A DNA stretch of 19,350 bases, taken from contig JAKFXV010000050.1 in assembly GCA_021731205.1 (NCBI GenBank), positions 1 to 19,350 of the forward strand, given 5' to 3'. Origin of the DNA: Nocardioides sp. (GTDB taxonomy: Bacteria; Actinomycetota; Actinomycetes; Propionibacteriales; Nocardioidaceae). The position numbers and the translations under genes were made by a program. Shown piece after piece: positions 3,216 through 13,272 of this stretch (position 1 is the first letter of the stretch; each line of letters opens with the position of its first letter). The notes beneath the pieces are model-generated. The model made no database searches and had not been told where the DNA came from. It saw nothing but the letters and a program-made list of their open reading frames with translations.

Positions 3216-4313
3216 TCAGGAACCGGGCAGCACGCGGAGCGCGTCGGCGGCGAGGATGCAGGTGACGCGGCCGCCGGGAGCCGCCCAGGAAGGCACCTGT
3301 CCGGCCGAGTGCGCAACCTCGGCTTCGAGCCGGATCGTGCCGGTGCTGAGGCTGACGACACTCCGGGCCCCACGGTAGGTCACCGTCTCGACCTGTGCAG
3401 TCAGGCGGGTTCCGTCAGCCTCGGTGTGGTCGTCGGGAGGCAGCACGCGCACCCGCTCGGGCCGGATCATCACGTGTACGTGGTCCCCGATGTGGCCGCT
3501 CGCGCTCACGACCGACAGCGTGTGGTCGCCGACCCGGCAGGTGAGCGTGCCACCGCTGGACCCCGTCACCCGCGCCGGCCACAGGTTGGCGTTGCCCAAG
3601 AACGTCGCGACGTACGCCGACGCGGGGGTGCCGTACACCTCGCTCGGGGTGCCGACCTGCTCGACCTTGCCCTGGACCAGAACTGCGAGGCGGTCCGACA
3701 TCGTCAACGCCTCCTCCTGATCGTGAGTCACGTAGACGAACGTCGTGCGCACGGCCTGCTGCAAGGCCCTGAGCTCGGTCTGTAGCGAGGCCCGGAGGCG
3801 GGCATCCAACGCGCCGAGGGGTTCGTCGAGCAACAGCACCTTGGGCTCGAGCACCAGCGCCCGTGCCAATGCGACGCGCTGCTGCTGCCCTCCGGACAGT
3901 TGATGTGGGCGACGTTTGGCGAGAGCGCTCAACTCCACCAGCTCCAGCGCTCGCCCGATTTTGCTCGCCGCGTCCGCGCCCTGGATGCCGGCGTACTTCA
4001 GACCGAAGGCCACGTTGTCCTGAACCGACAAGAAGGGGAACAACGCATAGGACTGGAAGACCGTATTGACCGGTCTTCGGTGGGCGGGGACCTTCGTGAG
4101 ATCAGTTCCGTCCAGCGTGATCTCGCCGGCATCGGGCTCCTCGAACCCCGCGATCATCCGCAGCGTGGTCGTCTTCCCGCACCCTGACTCCCCCAGCAGC
4201 GAGAAGAACTCGCCGGCGCCGATCTCCAGTGACAGCTCATCGACTGCTCGCACGGGCGGAACCCCGGCGTACGCCTTCACCAAGCCGCGTAGGCTCAGCG
4301 CCCCTCCGCTCAC
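3216..4313 (-). CDS. potA: ABC transporter ATP-binding protein, spermidine/putrescine (PotA) type
   Basis: The ATPase that drives uptake through the PotB/PotC-type permeases encoded divergently at 7142-8955. In a 365-residue protein, Walker A GESGCGKT is at 41-48, the signature LSGGQQQ at 139-145, Walker B VLLLDEP at 159-165 and the switch His in THDQEEA at 197. A C-terminal TOBE-type domain spans about 280-365 with MIRPERVRVLP, as in PotA/FbpC/MalK relatives. The GTG at 4313 is chosen because AGGAGG stands four bases upstream and the family's start region (LSLRGLVKAYAG) follows at once. The open frame upstream is only the 59-bp repeat. The start overlaps the stop of the second minicistron as GTGA. 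It is the last gene of the leftward aminotransferase operon. Confidence 0.92.
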   Translation of the reverse strand: MSGGALSLRGLVKAYAGVPPVRAVDELSLEIGAGEFFSLLGESGCGKTTTLRMIAGFEEPDAGEITLDGTDLTKVPAHRRPVNTVFQSYALFPFLSVQDNVAFGLKYAGIQGADAASKIGRALELVELSALAKRRPHQLSGGQQQRVALARALVLEPKVLLLDEPLGALDARLRASLQTELRALQQAVRTTFVYVTHDQEEALTMSDRLAVLVQGKVEQVGTPSEVYGTPASAYVATFLGNANLWPARVTGSSGGTLTCRVGDHTLSVVSASGHIGDHVHVMIRPERVRVLPPDDHTEADGTRLTAQVETVTYRGARSVVSLSTGTIRLEAEVAHSAGQVPSWAAPGGRVTCILAADALRVLPGS

Positions 4314-4372
4314 GTTTCCTCCTGGTGAGCTCGCAGTTCGAGCGCAACTGCGCGCTCTCTCGCTTCGCTCAC
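4310..4372 (-). CDS. Minicistron 2 (20 codons) within the tandem repeat, coupled to potA
   Basis: GTG at 4372 opens 20 codons ending at TGA 4312-4310, encoding VSEARERAVA then LELRAHQEET. AGGAGG lies four bases before its GTG, and its stop overlaps the potA start as GTGA. Only the last two residues differ from minicistron 1. It may be a real micropeptide, a coupling device, or only repeat sequence. I recognise no family. Confidence 0.35.
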   Translation of the reverse strand: MSEARERAVALELRAHQEET

Positions 4373-4431
4373 GGTGCCTCCTGGTGAGCTCGCAGTTCGA
4401 GCGCAACTGCGCGCTCTCTCGCTTCGCTCAC
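4318..4431 (-). repeat. Two-copy direct repeat, 59-bp period, at the aminotransferase-potA junction
   Basis: The 55 bp at 4318-4372 and at 4377-4431 are identical; the 4-bp linkers differ (CACC or AAAC read on the minus strand). Each unit begins GTGAGCGAAGCGAG and ends in AGGAGG on the minus strand. Each also holds an imperfect 12-bp stem (GAGCGCGCAGTT against AACTGCGAGCTC, one mismatch) with a 7-base loop. The 59-bp period is one base short of 20 codons, so each unit shifts frame and recreates a GTGA overlap. Confidence 0.95.
4369..4431 (-). CDS. Minicistron 1 (20 codons) within the tandem repeat, coupled to the aminotransferase stop
   Basis: GTG at 4431 overlaps the aminotransferase TGA as GTGA, opens 20 codons and stops at 4371-4369, again overlapping the next GTG. 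The peptide starts VSEARERAVA and ends QEAP. Unlike minicistron 2 it has no Shine-Dalgarno in front, since the aminotransferase codons precede it; initiation would depend on re-initiation after the aminotransferase. Confidence 0.3.
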   Translation of the reverse strand: MSEARERAVALELRAHQEAP

Positions 4432-5816
4432 TGGTGGGGCCCGACCCGGGCCGCCAAAGTCTCCACGTTCGCCACGAAGCGGTCGACATCGGCGTCGGTG
4501 TGCTGCACCGAGACCAGCCACTGCTCGATCTTGCCCCAGGGCGGCAGGAACACCCCCCCGTTGTGCTGCACCAGCCAGTGCGCCTGCCCCAGCCGCTCGT
4601 CGACCTCCAGGAAGTCGCGGTAGTTGCGGATCGGATCGGCACGGAAGGCGATGCACCCCTTGGCGCCCGCTCGGACCACATGCCAGGGCAACCCGTGCCG
4701 CGCGATGATGGCGCCGATCTCGGCCTCCAGCCGCTGGCCGAGGCGCTCGAGGTGTGCGTAGGCGGACTCGGTCGCGACCTCGGTCAGCATCGCCCGCGCG
4801 GCGGCCATGGCCAGCGGGTTCCCGTTGAACGTCCCGACCTGTTCGTAGGTGCCGTCCGCGATCAGGCCCATCAGCGCCGCCGTGCCGCCGATCGCTGCAG
4901 TCGAGACGCCCCCGCCCATGGACTTGGCCAGACAGACCAGATCGGGCGTCACCCCCGACGCGGCGCTCACCCCACCCGGGCCGACGGTCAGCCCGGTCTT
5001 GACCTCGTCGAAAGCGAGCAGCACGTCATGCGCGTGCAGCAACTCCTTGAGTCCGGCGAGATAGCCGGGGTCGGGGTGGATGATGCCGGCGTTCATCATC
5101 AGCGGCTCGAGGATCATCCCGGCGATCTCACCGGCTCGCGCCGTGAGCACCCGTTCGACCGCGGCGAGGTCGTTGAAGGCCACGACATCCACCAGGTCGA
5201 CGATGGCCTGAGGGATGCCCGCTTGCGCTGCGCAGGCGTACGGCGATCGGGCCGGACCCGCTTCGTCGAGGTCGGGCATGACCGACACCTGCACCGAGTC
5301 GTGGTGTCCGTGGTAGCAGCCCTCGACCTTGATGATCCGCTCCCGGCCGGTGGCCGCTCGCATCAGATGGATCGCGTCCATGGTGGCTTCGGTGCCGGAG
5401 TTCGCGAAGCGCCACAACGGCAGCCCCCATCTTGCGGCGAGTTCGGTGGCCACGGCGATCGCGTCCTCCGTGGGCTGCGCGAAATGCGTGCCGAGCGCGA
5501 CTCGAGCCTGCACTGCCCGGACGATCGCCGGGTGCGCGTGGCCCGCCAACGACACGCCGTACCCCCCGTGGAAGTCGCTGTACGCCGTCCCGTCGACGTC
5601 AAACACCAGCGGACCGGCACCGTGGCTCATCCAGACCGCCTGCGGCTCGGCGATCTGCCAGTTCGAGGTCGCTCCCCCGGCCAGCACGCCCTGCGAGCGT
5701 TCGATGAGCCGGCGCGACCTGGGCTGGCGGGCCAAGAACACCTCGCTCTGCTCCGCGATCAAGGTGTCGAGTTGATCGGTGGTGGTGTCCAACTTCGGTG
5801 CCCCGAGGGTGGTCAC
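4428..5816 (-). CDS. Class III pyridoxal-phosphate aminotransferase, glutamate-1-semialdehyde aminomutase-like
   Basis: A 462-residue PLP enzyme that should move an amino group from an amine or omega-amino acid to a keto acid. Visible fold-type I landmarks are NSGTEATM at 139-146 (phosphate binding), YHGHHD at 168-173, FDEVKTG at 269-275 with the PLP-ring Asp270, and AKSMGGG with the Schiff-base Lys298. Overall it most resembles HemL-type proteins (GHAHPAIV, WRFANSGTEA). However, its place in an operon with a polyamine-type transporter argues for a catabolic aminotransferase rather than haem synthesis (inference). GTG at 5816 is chosen because AAGGAG stands seven bases upstream. The TGA overlaps a GTG of the downstream repeat. 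The DNA substrate locus is read divergently from the binding-protein gene across 61 bp. Confidence 0.88.
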   Translation of the reverse strand: MTTLGAPKLDTTTDQLDTLIAEQSEVFLARQPRSRRLIERSQGVLAGGATSNWQIAEPQAVWMSHGAGPLVFDVDGTAYSDFHGGYGVSLAGHAHPAIVRAVQARVALGTHFAQPTEDAIAVATELAARWGLPLWRFANSGTEATMDAIHLMRAATGRERIIKVEGCYHGHHDSVQVSVMPDLDEAGPARSPYACAAQAGIPQAIVDLVDVVAFNDLAAVERVLTARAGEIAGMILEPLMMNAGIIHPDPGYLAGLKELLHAHDVLLAFDEVKTGLTVGPGGVSAASGVTPDLVCLAKSMGGGVSTAAIGGTAALMGLIADGTYEQVGTFNGNPLAMAAARAMLTEVATESAYAHLERLGQRLEAEIGAIIARHGLPWHVVRAGAKGCIAFRADPIRNYRDFLEVDERLGQAHWLVQHNGGVFLPPWGKIEQWLVSVQHTDADVDRFVANVETLAARVGPHQ

Positions 5817-5832
5817 GTGCGGCTCCTTTCGA

Positions 5833-5847
5833 GTGCCTGAGAGGCAC
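5833..5847. promoter_or_regulatory. Inverted repeat in the divergent aminotransferase / binding-protein promoter region
   Basis: GTGCCT-GAG-AGGCAC is a perfect 6-bp inverted repeat in the 61-bp gap between the divergent transcription units. A TTGACT (5859-5864) lies close by. It is well placed to act as an operator for both arms. No local regulator gene is adjacent. Confidence 0.4.
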
Positions 5848-5877
5848 CCAGTACAGCATTGACTGGCCGTTCAGTCC

Positions 5878-7149
5878 ATGACACCTTGGGTTCCCATGAA
5901 GCAGCCAGGCGCGTGGCGGGCGGTCGAGCGCGACATCAGCAGACGGACCTTTCTCAAGGCCGGCGGTGGCGTCGCCGCCGCAGCCGGATTGCTCAGCGCG
6001 TGCGGTGGTGGCACAGCGGGCCCGGGTTCCCCGAACGCCTCCGCGGTGCAGATCGCGAGCCCGACCAATCCCGTCCGGTGGCCGATCCACGATGACGTGC
6101 CGATGATCGCGTCGGGCCTGAAGCCCGAGGCCGGGAGCACGCTGAAGATCTACAACTACGCCGACTACCTGAGCCCTCGAGTGATCAAGAACTTCGAGCG
6201 CGACTACTCCGTCAACGTCGAGTTGGCCACTTTCAACGACACGGAGGAGGCGATAGGCAAGATCGCCTCGGGTGGGCTGGGCTACGACATCTACTTCCCG
6301 TCGTACGACCAGATCGGCAAGCTGGTCGCGGCCAAGCTCGTCCAGCCCCTCAACCAGGACTACCTCGCAAACATCTCCTCGGTCTGGCCGCAGTTCACCG
6401 ACCCGTGGTACGACCTCGGCTGGCAGTACTCCGTCCCGTACACGACGTACACCACGGGCGTCGGCTGGCGCACCGATCAGGTGAACACCGACGTGGCGAG
6501 CCTGCCCAACCCCTACGACGCGCTGTGGGATCCGAGCGTGGCCGACAAGATCGCCATCATCGACGACTGGCATGTCGCGATGGCCATGGTGTTGCTCCGG
6601 GAAGGCAACTACGACATCAACAGCGAGAGCTCGGAGGACATCGCGCTGATCCGCACCCGGCTGCTGGAGCTGGCCGCAGCCACGGACCCCAAGGTCACCA
6701 TCACGATGTACAACGACCTGCCGGCGGGCCAACTCGGCTTGTGCCAGATGTGGTCTGGCGACGTCGTTAACGCGGTCTACTACCTCCCGAAGGGTCAGCG
6801 CCCTGACATCTTGCGCTACTGGTTCCCCGAGGATGGCCGGGGCATGGTCGACAACGACCTGATGATGATCCTGGCGGGGGGTCAGAACCCCGTGGCGGCC
6901 CACTACTTCTTGAACTACCTGCTCGACGAGCAGGTGTCTCTCGCAAACTTCGGCTTCACCGGCTATCAGCCTCCGCAGAACGTCATCAATCCGACGCGCC
7001 TGGTCGAGGACGGTTACCTCCCCGAGAACCTGCGCACGGCAACCGTGCTCCCTGAATGGTTCGACTCCGGCACCCGACTGCTGGGCATGCCGATCGAAGT
7101 CGAGCAGCAGTGGCTCAACGTCTGGCAGGAGTTCAAGGCGGGTGCCTGA
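5878..7149 (+). CDS. potD: ABC transporter substrate-binding lipoprotein, spermidine/putrescine (PotD) type, Tat-exported
   Basis: The extracytoplasmic receptor of the transporter. The N-terminus carries a twin-arginine signal (SRRTFLK, Arg22-Arg23), a short hydrophobic stretch and a lipobox LLSAC, with Cys42 the likely lipid-modified residue. The mature part has the SBP_bac type fold signature KIYNYADYLSPRVIKNFE, then YDIYFPSYDQIGKL, as in PotD/PotF proteins. It is 423 residues, slightly longer than E. coli PotD mainly because of the Tat leader. Two starts are possible, ATG 5878 or ATG 5896; neither has a good ribosome site, and I keep the longer one. It overlaps the downstream permease by 8 bp. 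Pot-type specificity (polyamine or another amine) is inferred from family only. Confidence 0.9.
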   Translation: MTPWVPMKQPGAWRAVERDISRRTFLKAGGGVAAAAGLLSACGGGTAGPGSPNASAVQIASPTNPVRWPIHDDVPMIASGLKPEAGSTLKIYNYADYLSPRVIKNFERDYSVNVELATFNDTEEAIGKIASGGLGYDIYFPSYDQIGKLVAAKLVQPLNQDYLANISSVWPQFTDPWYDLGWQYSVPYTTYTTGVGWRTDQVNTDVASLPNPYDALWDPSVADKIAIIDDWHVAMAMVLLREGNYDINSESSEDIALIRTRLLELAAATDPKVTITMYNDLPAGQLGLCQMWSGDVVNAVYYLPKGQRPDILRYWFPEDGRGMVDNDLMMILAGGQNPVAAHYFLNYLLDEQVSLANFGFTGYQPPQNVINPTRLVEDGYLPENLRTATVLPEWFDSGTRLLGMPIEVEQQWLNVWQEFKAGA

Positions 7150-8062
7150 CCGCTTGCCACGAGGGGGGAGCCCGGCTCCCCGCTGGCTGTGGCCGGCTCT
7201 GGCAGCGCCGGGAACCGCCTGGTTGCTGGTGTTCCTCGTGGCCCCGATGTACCTCGTGGCGGCGATCCTCTTCGGCACGATCGACCCGATCCTGCGCCGC
7301 CCGATCCCGGTGTGGAACCCAGCCGACTGGGACCCGACCCAGTTCCAGTACGTCTGGTCGCGTCTCTCCGGTGCGGACGGCTTCTTCGGCCCTGCGCTGC
7401 TGCGCACTGCGTTGTACGTCGGCACGGCCAGCGTCCTGTGTCTGCTGATCGCCTACCCGGTGGCGTACTACGCCGCGCGGATCGCCGATCGCAGGCGCGG
7501 CATGCTCCTGGCCGCACTGATCGCGCCGTTCTGGATCAGCTACATGATGCGCATGCTGGCCTGGGTGAACCTGCTCCAGAACGACGGTCTGGTCAACCAG
7601 CTGATCACTCTCGGCGGGCTCTTCGACACCGAGATCGACTGGCTGGGCGGCCGGGCCACGACGGTGGTCCTCGGACTGACCTATGGCTATGTGCCCTACA
7701 TGATCCTGCCCCTCTACGCCGGCCTGGATCGGATCCCCGCGTCGATGATCGAGGCCGGCCGTGACCTCGGCGCTAATCGGTTCCAGACCTGGCGTCGGGT
7801 GACGTGGCCGATGTCGAGGCCGGCCGTCGTCACGGCCGTGATCTTGACCTGCCTCCCGATGCTGGGCGACTACTTCACCTCCGATCTGTTGTCGGGCAAC
7901 CCACGCACCTCGATGGTGGGCAACCTGATCAACTCGGCCGTCCTCACGCCTGGCCAGACCGGGCAGGCGGCGGCGTTCGTCCTGCTGCTCCTGCTCGTCT
8001 CGATCGTGCCGATGGGCCTCTACATCCGCGTGACCCGGGACGGAGAGGCGACGCGCACATGA
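7142..8062 (+). CDS. potB: ABC transporter permease, PotB type
   Basis: A 306-residue inner-membrane subunit with about six transmembrane helices, the first at residues 17-44 (LWPALAAPGTAWLLVFL). The EAA loop that docks on the ATPase reads EAGRDLGANRFQTWRRVTWP at about 201-220, typical of PotB/PotC permeases. The GTG at 7142 overlaps the binding-protein stop by 8 bp, and the stop overlaps the next permease start as ATGA. It works with the PotC-type subunit, the receptor and the divergently encoded ATPase. Confidence 0.92.
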   Translation: MPDRLPRGGSPAPRWLWPALAAPGTAWLLVFLVAPMYLVAAILFGTIDPILRRPIPVWNPADWDPTQFQYVWSRLSGADGFFGPALLRTALYVGTASVLCLLIAYPVAYYAARIADRRRGMLLAALIAPFWISYMMRMLAWVNLLQNDGLVNQLITLGGLFDTEIDWLGGRATTVVLGLTYGYVPYMILPLYAGLDRIPASMIEAGRDLGANRFQTWRRVTWPMSRPAVVTAVILTCLPMLGDYFTSDLLSGNPRTSMVGNLINSAVLTPGQTGQAAAFVLLLLLVSIVPMGLYIRVTRDGEATRT

Positions 8063-12468: not shown

Positions 12469-13272
12469 TCAACGGATCCCGGGGATCTCGGGATCCTCGT
12501 GGTGACTGCCGGGTTGTCGGCCGGCACGACGATCGGCCCGCCGCTCCAGCCACCGCGCGATGAGTGGGCCGAGGAGCACCCCGGTCAGATCGAACCCGAC
12601 GTAGCCCGAGACTGCGCCGCTGGGCGGATTCCCCATCGGTACGCCGAGTCCGGGCACCACCGGGACCCAGCTCCAGGTGCCGATCCACACGCCGTAGATC
12701 TCCAGCACGGCGACCACGACGAACACCCCCGCGATCACCGCTGCGTCGCGGCTGACCAGCAAGAACGCAATCACCACGACGCAGCCGAAGGCTCCGGCGA
12801 CGTCGTACCGCCCGAGGATGCCGGTCAATCCCACCAGGCCCCACAGCGCGATCAGCCCGATCATGGCGCGCACGAACCACGCTCGGTGGCGAGCGACGAG
12901 ATCGAGCTGACTGATCCGCCAGCCCGCGATATAGACGAGACCGTGACCGGCGGGGACGAACAGGGGCAGGTTGTCCAGGCGATAGATGTACAGCCCCCAG
13001 ATGATCGACCCCACGATCTCGCCCATGGTGGCCGCCACGACCACGACCGCCACCCGAGTCCGGTCCTCGAGTGACAGCGGCACTGTCACGATCACGAGTA
13101 CCACCCACGGAACCACCGACAGCAGCACTTGGGCGGGGAGGTTGGTGAAGCTGTCGACCCACAGCCCGACCATCGTGAACACGAAGAAGGCGGGCACGAA
13201 GACGGCGGGCCGGCTCAGCGAGCGACCGAGGCCGGCGACCGAGCCTGTCGTGAGACGGTCGGTCGCAGTCAT
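12469..13272 (-). CDS. Polytopic membrane protein of unknown function
   Basis: A 267-residue protein with about eight transmembrane helices (for example FVPAFFVFTMVGLWV, PWVVLVIVTVPL, AVIAGVFVVVAVLEIYGVWI). Conserved-looking polar spots inside the membrane are SIIWGLYIYRLDNLP and WIGTWSWVP. I cannot place it in a named family. Some prokaryotic carotenoid-related and lysoplasmalogenase-like membrane proteins share this look, but I see no diagnostic motif. The ATG at 13272 (MTATDR) is preferred over the TTG at 13281. Neither has a Shine-Dalgarno. The start follows the acetyltransferase stop by 11 bp, so the two may be one operon, or the gene may start a leaderless mRNA. The C-terminus is a charged tail. 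Confidence 0.75.
   Translation of the reverse strand: MTATDRLTTGSVAGLGRSLSRPAVFVPAFFVFTMVGLWVDSFTNLPAQVLLSVVPWVVLVIVTVPLSLEDRTRVAVVVVAATMGEIVGSIIWGLYIYRLDNLPLFVPAGHGLVYIAGWRISQLDLVARHRAWFVRAMIGLIALWGLVGLTGILGRYDVAGAFGCVVVIAFLLVSRDAAVIAGVFVVVAVLEIYGVWIGTWSWVPVVPGLGVPMGNPPSGAVSGYVGFDLTGVLLGPLIARWLERRADRRAGRQPGSHHEDPEIPGIR
12474..12496. terminator. Inverted repeat at the Rieske / membrane-protein convergent junction
   Basis: GGATCCCG (12474-12481) pairs perfectly with CGGGATCC (12489-12496) across a 7-base loop. It lies 24 bp after the oxygenase stop and inside the last codons of the opposing gene. It could end the rightward transcript, but no T-run follows. Confidence 0.4.

Follow-up and report, generated by a model that had tools for sequence, protein, structure and literature searches.

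The two short repeat units that separate an aminotransferase gene from a potA-type gene in a 19,350-nucleotide stretch of Nocardioides DNA (the window) are probably copies of a non-autonomous palindromic mobile element, which enters the stop/start overlaps of neighboring genes and preserves their translational coupling. Relatives of these units are dispersed over the source genome and over part of the genus, form a hairpin supported by covariation, sit mostly at RTGA overlaps in a preserved reading frame, and have empty counterparts in other genomes.

At the locus itself, two 59-bp units lie in tandem on the minus strand (4431-4314) at a spacing of 59 bp, each an open frame of 20 codons whose own TGA overlaps the next GTG. 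This confirms what a sequence-only reading of the stretch had described, namely two 59-bp, 20-codon minicistrons joined by three GTGA overlaps; the AGGAGG that it placed ahead of every following GTG is likewise seen in the sequence. In the order of transcription, the features are:

4428-5816, minus strand: class-III aminotransferase gene, upstream of the element (NCBIfam matches under curated cut-offs)
4428-4431, minus strand: GTGA, stop of the aminotransferase gene and start of minicistron 1 (sequence)
4373-4431, minus strand: unit 1, 59 bp, with minicistron VSEARERAVALELRAHQEAP (covariance-model match, E 1.1e-17)
4384-4431, minus strand: hairpin of unit 1, GTGAGC / GCG / GAGCGC paired with GCGCTC / TGC / GCTCAC (folding and family covariation)
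4377-4382, minus strand: AGGAGG, Shine-Dalgarno sequence of unit 1, for minicistron 2 (sequence; anti-Shine-Dalgarno energies of element tails)
4369-4372, minus strand: GTGA, stop of minicistron 1 and start of minicistron 2 (sequence)
4314-4372, minus strand: unit 2, 59 bp, with minicistron VSEARERAVALELRAHQEET (covariance-model match, E 2.3e-17)
4325-4372, minus strand: hairpin of unit 2, pairing as in unit 1 (folding and family covariation)
4318-4323, minus strand: AGGAGG, Shine-Dalgarno sequence of unit 2, for potA (sequence; anti-Shine-Dalgarno energies of element tails)
4310-4313, minus strand: GTGA, stop of minicistron 2 and start of potA (sequence)
3216-4313, minus strand: gene for an ABC transporter ATPase of the PotA type, following the element (NCBIfam matches under curated cut-offs)

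Repeat finding returned a 59-bp pair with 95% identity, in a register slightly shifted from the unit borders, and the tandem repeat has a TRF score of 237. The upstream aminotransferase is related to glutamate-1-semialdehyde aminomutase, as judged from the NCBIfam matches shown, which are below the curated cut-offs. Within 3216-8062 of the window, the potA-type gene and the aminotransferase gene on the minus strand are divergent from a potD/potF-like (5878-7149) and a potB/potH-like gene (7142-8062) on the plus strand (family matches again under the curated cut-offs), so that the transporter seems to be split over two divergent transcripts. Elsewhere in the window, at 13180-13210, there is a 15-bp tandem repeat with 2.1 copies (TRF score 55).

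The source genome is a Nocardioides metagenome-assembled genome of 2.09 Mb in 350 contigs, 84% complete. A search of the unit against the whole genome, as the sequence-only reading had proposed, revealed many further sites. The head GTGAGCGAAGCGAG occurs seven times in the 2.09 Mb and its reversed control pattern not at all; a 65-base query, searched up to an E of 10, matched 28 times, with E no higher than 1.3e-13 for the best 14; and a covariance model built on 21 of 32 copies (alignment A1, near-duplicates and degenerate copies left out) matched 17 times. Read by eye, the full copies share the ends RTGAGCGAAGCGAGAGAGCGC and GCGCTCGAACTGCGAGCTCAY, with variants. The element is laid out as RTGAGCGAAGCGAGAG, stem, variable loop, stem, CGAACTGCGAGC and a purine-rich Shine-Dalgarno sequence, normally over 86 bp. 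This usual unit corresponds to 29 codons minus the overlap, and the 59-bp form, which is 27 bp (9 codons) shorter, is a derivative of it. That this one genome has 12 copies of the 59-bp form at 9 sites is what a spread of the shortened form itself would be expected to produce. Junctions which, from their translations, we take to be purF-purM, dnaX-ybaB and hisC-hisB carry the element, what is presumably a pair of glycosyltransferase genes carries three copies in tandem, and a degenerate copy lies between the presumed infA and rpmJ.

Several other sequences came to light. A second dispersed palindrome around GGTTGAGGAGCGAGCGAAGCGAGCGTCTCGAAACC has the core GAGCGAAGCGAG in common with the element and different ends; it was found at L039, L040, L041, L049, L052 and L053 (contigs C13, C15, C16, C79, C233 and C268 of the source genome), in tandem at L049. 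Tail-less heads at L007 (18-40), L006 (1501-1530) and the second copy of L016 (1559-1623) form the N-terminus of the next frame (MSEARER.../VSEARER...), as if decayed elements had donated their start codon. At L012 (1273-1321, minus strand) there is a weak match to the CRISPR direct-repeat model RF01333 (28 bits, under the gathering score).

Among relatives, the covariance model matched 41 of 209 Nocardioides genomes at E<=0.01, the source genome included. The best match had E <1e-7 in 29 of these; the other 12 are weak positives (best E 3.5e-6 to 0.009), and several of the weak matches are unlike the element on reading. Weak matches in G214 (two), G175 and G086 were left out of the reading. 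One genome, G142, had 12 matches. A strict pattern with both ends hit 13 of 215 Nocardioides genomes, with no control hits. Uniqueness to this site and absence from relatives, one half of what the sequence-only reading had named as evidence against itself, therefore does not hold, since the repeat occurs at many sites both in the source genome and in relatives. In an order-wide search of 391 genomes, part of them Nocardioides, three weak matches fell outside the genus, and we rejected occurrence outside Nocardioides among these genomes, as none of the three reads like the element. Of a set of 40 genome-contig loci, 9 are titled Nocardioides; we assume the remaining 31 to be chance matches. Neither a search of plasmids for the element nor one of viral contigs with the strict pattern found a carrier.

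Two unusual arrangements were seen along the way. At L179 (1501-1845, minus strand) in one Nocardioides genome, four weak copies of 84-87 bp (24-33 bits) stand in tandem and stay in one frame, a 144-codon repeat frame with no chain of overlaps. At L077, a 21-bp stretch GTGAGCGAACGGGGCAGAGCT with an RTGA site on either side lies just 5' of the first full copy; it looks as though a deletion had joined the GAGCGAA of the head to that of the tail.

To describe position and frame we scored arrays whose best copy reached at least 40.5 bits and counted weaker matches only where they adjoined a stronger one. By this joining rule there are 65 arrays with 77 copies: 56 single, 6 double and 3 triple. An RTGA head is present in 54 arrays, and in 45 of these (44 of the 50 with a clear phase) its TGA is by codon phase the stop of the upstream gene, where codon phase alone leads one to expect one third. 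The head is absent in the other 11 arrays, in the case of L133 solely owing to a weak match that the joining rule placed ahead of it. A few copies lie outside coupled junctions, such as L015, after an mscL-like gene, and L019, 5' of a glyA-like gene. The usual insertion site is a junction between genes, not the inside of a host reading frame, and RTGA is found at both edges of most measurable sites.

For 45 of the 54 RTGA-headed arrays we could identify a downstream start that lies in coding phase; the nine for which the rule used gave none are outside all length counts. In 39 of the 45, the insert has the length that minicistrons overlapping in a chain would give; these are 36 single inserts (2 modulo 3), two tandem arrays of two units (172 and 118 bp) and one of three units (177 bp). 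Following the short frames from one overlap to the next leads precisely to the downstream start in 35 of the 45. At L141, L156, L159 and L170 the phase is right but the head frame does not end on the start. Inserts without chain length are the in-frame N-terminal fusions L131, L135 and L146; L128, where a single minicistron precedes a fusion; and L136 and L166, which show neither chain length nor fusion. The main length classes are 86 (23), 83 (6) and 59 bp (2 single), with a few others. As the copies share descent, the frame counts do not represent independent events and the common length of 86 is partly inherited. A repeat that inserts or duplicates at stop/start overlaps, as the sequence-only reading had supposed, is borne out in that the copies are mostly at overlaps, occur in tandem and mostly keep the overlap chain, and the interpretation given there is supported in part. 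A tuning of the ATPase level relative to the enzyme and a copy number that varies between strains, which it had also suggested, are conjectural. Against our own explanation count the shared descent, the arrays without RTGA head, the six of 45 inserts that lack chain length, the four inexact endings and the weak positives among the genomes.

Filled and empty forms of the same junction can be compared directly. Matching sdhA-sdhB pairs were found in 113 of 118 genomes; when the best 30 loci were read, 2 were filled and 28 empty, the latter consisting of 15 plain GTGA overlaps and 13 other arrangements. The filled sites read AAGTGA, element, then GTGA or ATGA, and thus have two RTGAs. The covariance-model search added two further filled sdhA-sdhB sites, L145 and L173. 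Together with L134, likewise at sdhA-sdhB, these copies belong to the 83 class and keep the DNA of the tail, which is read in another frame and still ends on the next RTGA, suggesting that it is the overlap that is kept rather than the peptide. For the aminotransferase-potA pair, 11 of 196 genomes match at E up to 1e-60, the source included. The junction is readable in three of the other ten, and none of the three has the element: L245 has a GTGA overlap, L243 a TGATG overlap, and L236, whose protein is 83% identical, a stop followed by a start read as TTG. These three empty relatives, and the occurrence of the element between what the translations suggest are many different gene pairs, argue against a dedicated role at potA.

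The hairpin had been proposed in the sequence-only reading as an imperfect one of 12 bp. A hairpin is present, yet it is larger: unit 1 folds into helices of 6, 3 and 6 base pairs, separated by two internal loops, at -24.8 kcal/mol, only modestly better than its shuffles (z -1.9; 8 of 200 shuffles fold equally well). The family alignments give stronger evidence. In A1 (21 copies), 92.0% of cells are paired and 23 are double-change cells, as compared to 6.8 +/- 2.1 in shuffles. In alignment A3, which sets out 27 copies of exactly 86 bp without gaps (the 30 distinct sequences of this length minus three near-duplicates), 87.6% of cells are paired and there are 31 double-change cells against 9.0 +/- 2.6 in shuffles, a number reached by none of 500 shuffles, a control that ignores the relatedness of the copies; slid versions of the alignment, which allow for relatedness, have <=4 such cells. 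In these 27 copies, five of the six pairs of the inner stem change on both sides, further pair types are not above shuffles (14 versus 15.0), and the outer helix lacks its third pair in 17 and its fourth in 18. In the source genome, most copies have ends that pair as RTGAGC/GCTCAY, and head and tail pair at their outermost bases in 15 of 17, as GTG...CAC, as ATG...CAT and once, at a site without a start codon, as CCG...CGG. Rfam models had no match at the element in the window stretch and five loci searched.

The stretch ahead of the element's own start and the tail ahead of the downstream start bind the anti-Shine-Dalgarno sequence to a similar degree. In 49 copies, the mean energy was -6.83 kcal/mol before the element and -7.0 kcal/mol in its tail, with 38 and 33 copies, respectively, at -5 kcal/mol or better; 240 random upstream 15-mers had a mean of -2.65 kcal/mol and reached -5 in 18% of cases.

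Taken together, these observations suggest how insertion could proceed. The element would land at a 4-base RTGA where the stop of one gene overlaps the start of the next. Its TGA would stop the upstream gene and its RTG would open a minicistron of 29 codons (here 20), which would take over the former Shine-Dalgarno sequence of the downstream gene, while the tail would bring a new one before the second RTGA. Because the element begins with its own RTGA and has a length of 2 modulo 3, the product would be an upstream stop, a minicistron and a second RTGA overlap. After the upstream gene, a ribosome would reinitiate on the minicistron, read through the hairpin, terminate at the following RTGA and reinitiate there; since it could stop and restart at each RTGA, coupling would survive one, two or three tandem copies. 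Movement would be by transposition, as DNA or RNA, the minicistrons would be translated, and coupling would be the reason for the preserved frame and for the survival of insertions.

Which enzyme might mobilize the element was addressed by searches for Y1 transposases (PF01797), which brought up no mobilizing enzyme or autonomous partner. There is no match in the source genome (84% complete), and the only one in 209 Nocardioides genomes is in G145, a genome outside the 41 positives. RAYT mobilization was therefore rejected, as none of the 41 positive genomes has a Y1 transposase. It is a tentative and on balance rather doubtful proposition that the element represents a new class of mobile elements, which recognizes RTGA at intercistronic stop/start overlaps, carries a translatable cassette that swaps Shine-Dalgarno sequences and piles up in essential operons without breaking coupling; recognition might perhaps take place on the transcript, at the points where ribosomes stop and start anew.

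We consider it unlikely that a known DNA transposon has given rise to the element as a classical MITE, in which RTGA would be the 4-bp target duplication and the location at overlaps would be due solely to the harm done by other insertions, a reading that overlaps with the mobile-element explanation and does not exclude it. It would fit a short, palindromic, dispersed sequence with RTGA at both edges of most measurable sites, whose insertion is exact relative to the empty sites. However, no transposase partner emerged from the search for Y1 enzymes, and the 45 of 54 RTGA-headed arrays mentioned above are in the sense direction by codon phase. Further, the pairing of the first base of the head with the tail, seen in 15 of 17 source-genome copies, extends to L011 and L026, where the downstream start differs, so that RTGA looks like a part of the element.

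A cis-acting regulatory RNA, in which the hairpin controls downstream translation like a riboswitch or attenuator and the short frame is a leader peptide, appears improbable to us. A long-range stem with strong covariation next to a Shine-Dalgarno sequence, in sense orientation at operon junctions, is what one would look for in such an RNA, but the host genes look unrelated in their translations, and presence is sporadic, with 2 of the best 30 sdhA-sdhB loci filled and the three readable potA junctions of relatives empty. Moreover, a local hairpin (16-20/24-28), considered as a competing fold, was rejected because it shows no covariation.

We also asked for constraint on the encoded peptide. 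The pN/pS ratio was computed for 30 distinct sequences among 100 matches (82 loci), a set that leans to open frames due to its selection for exactly 86 bp with RTGA, 29 codons and RTGA. Over the whole unit the ratio is 0.96 in the peptide frame versus 1.02 and 0.80 in the two alternative frames (0.96 to 1.01 after column shuffling), over the middle segment 1.04 versus 1.20 and 0.93 (column shuffles 1.06 to 1.13) and over the tail segment 1.10 versus 0.86 and 0.75; in the first 21 bases it is 0.45 versus 1.09 and 0.61. There is thus a hint of protein-level constraint in the head (the first seven codons) only and none over the whole unit, and protein-level selection along the full length of the peptide was rejected. 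That the 20-29 residue peptide is the functional product, with its gene copied around as a microprotein family, is very improbable: its start and end are alike between copies (SEAR...ELRA), its frame is open in most high-scoring copies and its head has the low ratio just given, but the whole-unit ratio is unremarkable next to the other frames, L134, L145 and L173 keep the DNA of the tail in a different reading frame, L019 keeps the palindrome (CCGAGC/GCTCGG) without a start codon, and none of five peptides matches Pfam.

Literature searches on REP and MITE sequences in Nocardioides, on the 12-base core of the head, and on palindromes in connection with coupling or overlap brought up no description of the element, in a coverage that leaves out most subscription journals. 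Of the known systems, Rickettsia palindromic elements (RPEs) and REP sequences come nearest. In passages of PMC10969869, RPEs are short palindromic repeats, of which some families enter genes and keep the frame open, and in R. conorii nearly half lie inside reading frames, each encoding a conserved peptide. As far as these passages go, both kinds of element are palindromic and keep a frame open (here in 35 inserts that form exact chains and 3 that form N-terminal fusions, out of 45 measurable ones), whereas the Nocardioides element lies at stop/start overlaps and its peptide is as a whole not conserved. REP sequences of the GTAG and CGTC families, as portrayed in the part of PMC3733652 that we draw on, are palindromic, lie near coding regions and have ends that can supply the stop codon of a flanking gene; in these points they resemble the Nocardioides element. 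REPs, 20-40 bp long according to an abstract, have a GTAG or CGTC tag, whereas the Nocardioides element has 59-86 bp, RTGA, an internal frame and a Shine-Dalgarno sequence; with its head RTGAGCGAAGCG and units of 59 or 86 bp it has neither the tag nor a palindrome of 20-40 bp. The REP/RAYT system also differs from it in the Y1 transposase, which is absent from the 41 element-positive genomes. The passages on RPEs and REPs in these two sources describe no stop/start overlap that is split by an internal short cistron.

MITEs such as Chunjie, ERIC and Correia are, going by review passages and a reference title, non-autonomous, dispersed and able to enter operons, like the Nocardioides element. 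The latter differs by having no proven terminal repeats and target duplication, by its strong orientation bias and by a main length class of 2 modulo 3. Translational coupling at RTGA overlaps, by termination and reinitiation, uses an ordinary 4-base overlap and a Shine-Dalgarno sequence. In Nocardioides, insertion of the element doubles such an overlap. Operons with overlapping stop and start codons are expected to be hard to interrupt; if our explanation is true, the element would exemplify a novel means by which selfish DNA persists in compact operons, with the overlap kept on both sides, and would give rise to new short reading frames and to N-terminal extensions. The filled and empty alleles of a junction such as sdhA-sdhB in different species of the genus would then constitute a natural test set for termination-reinitiation.
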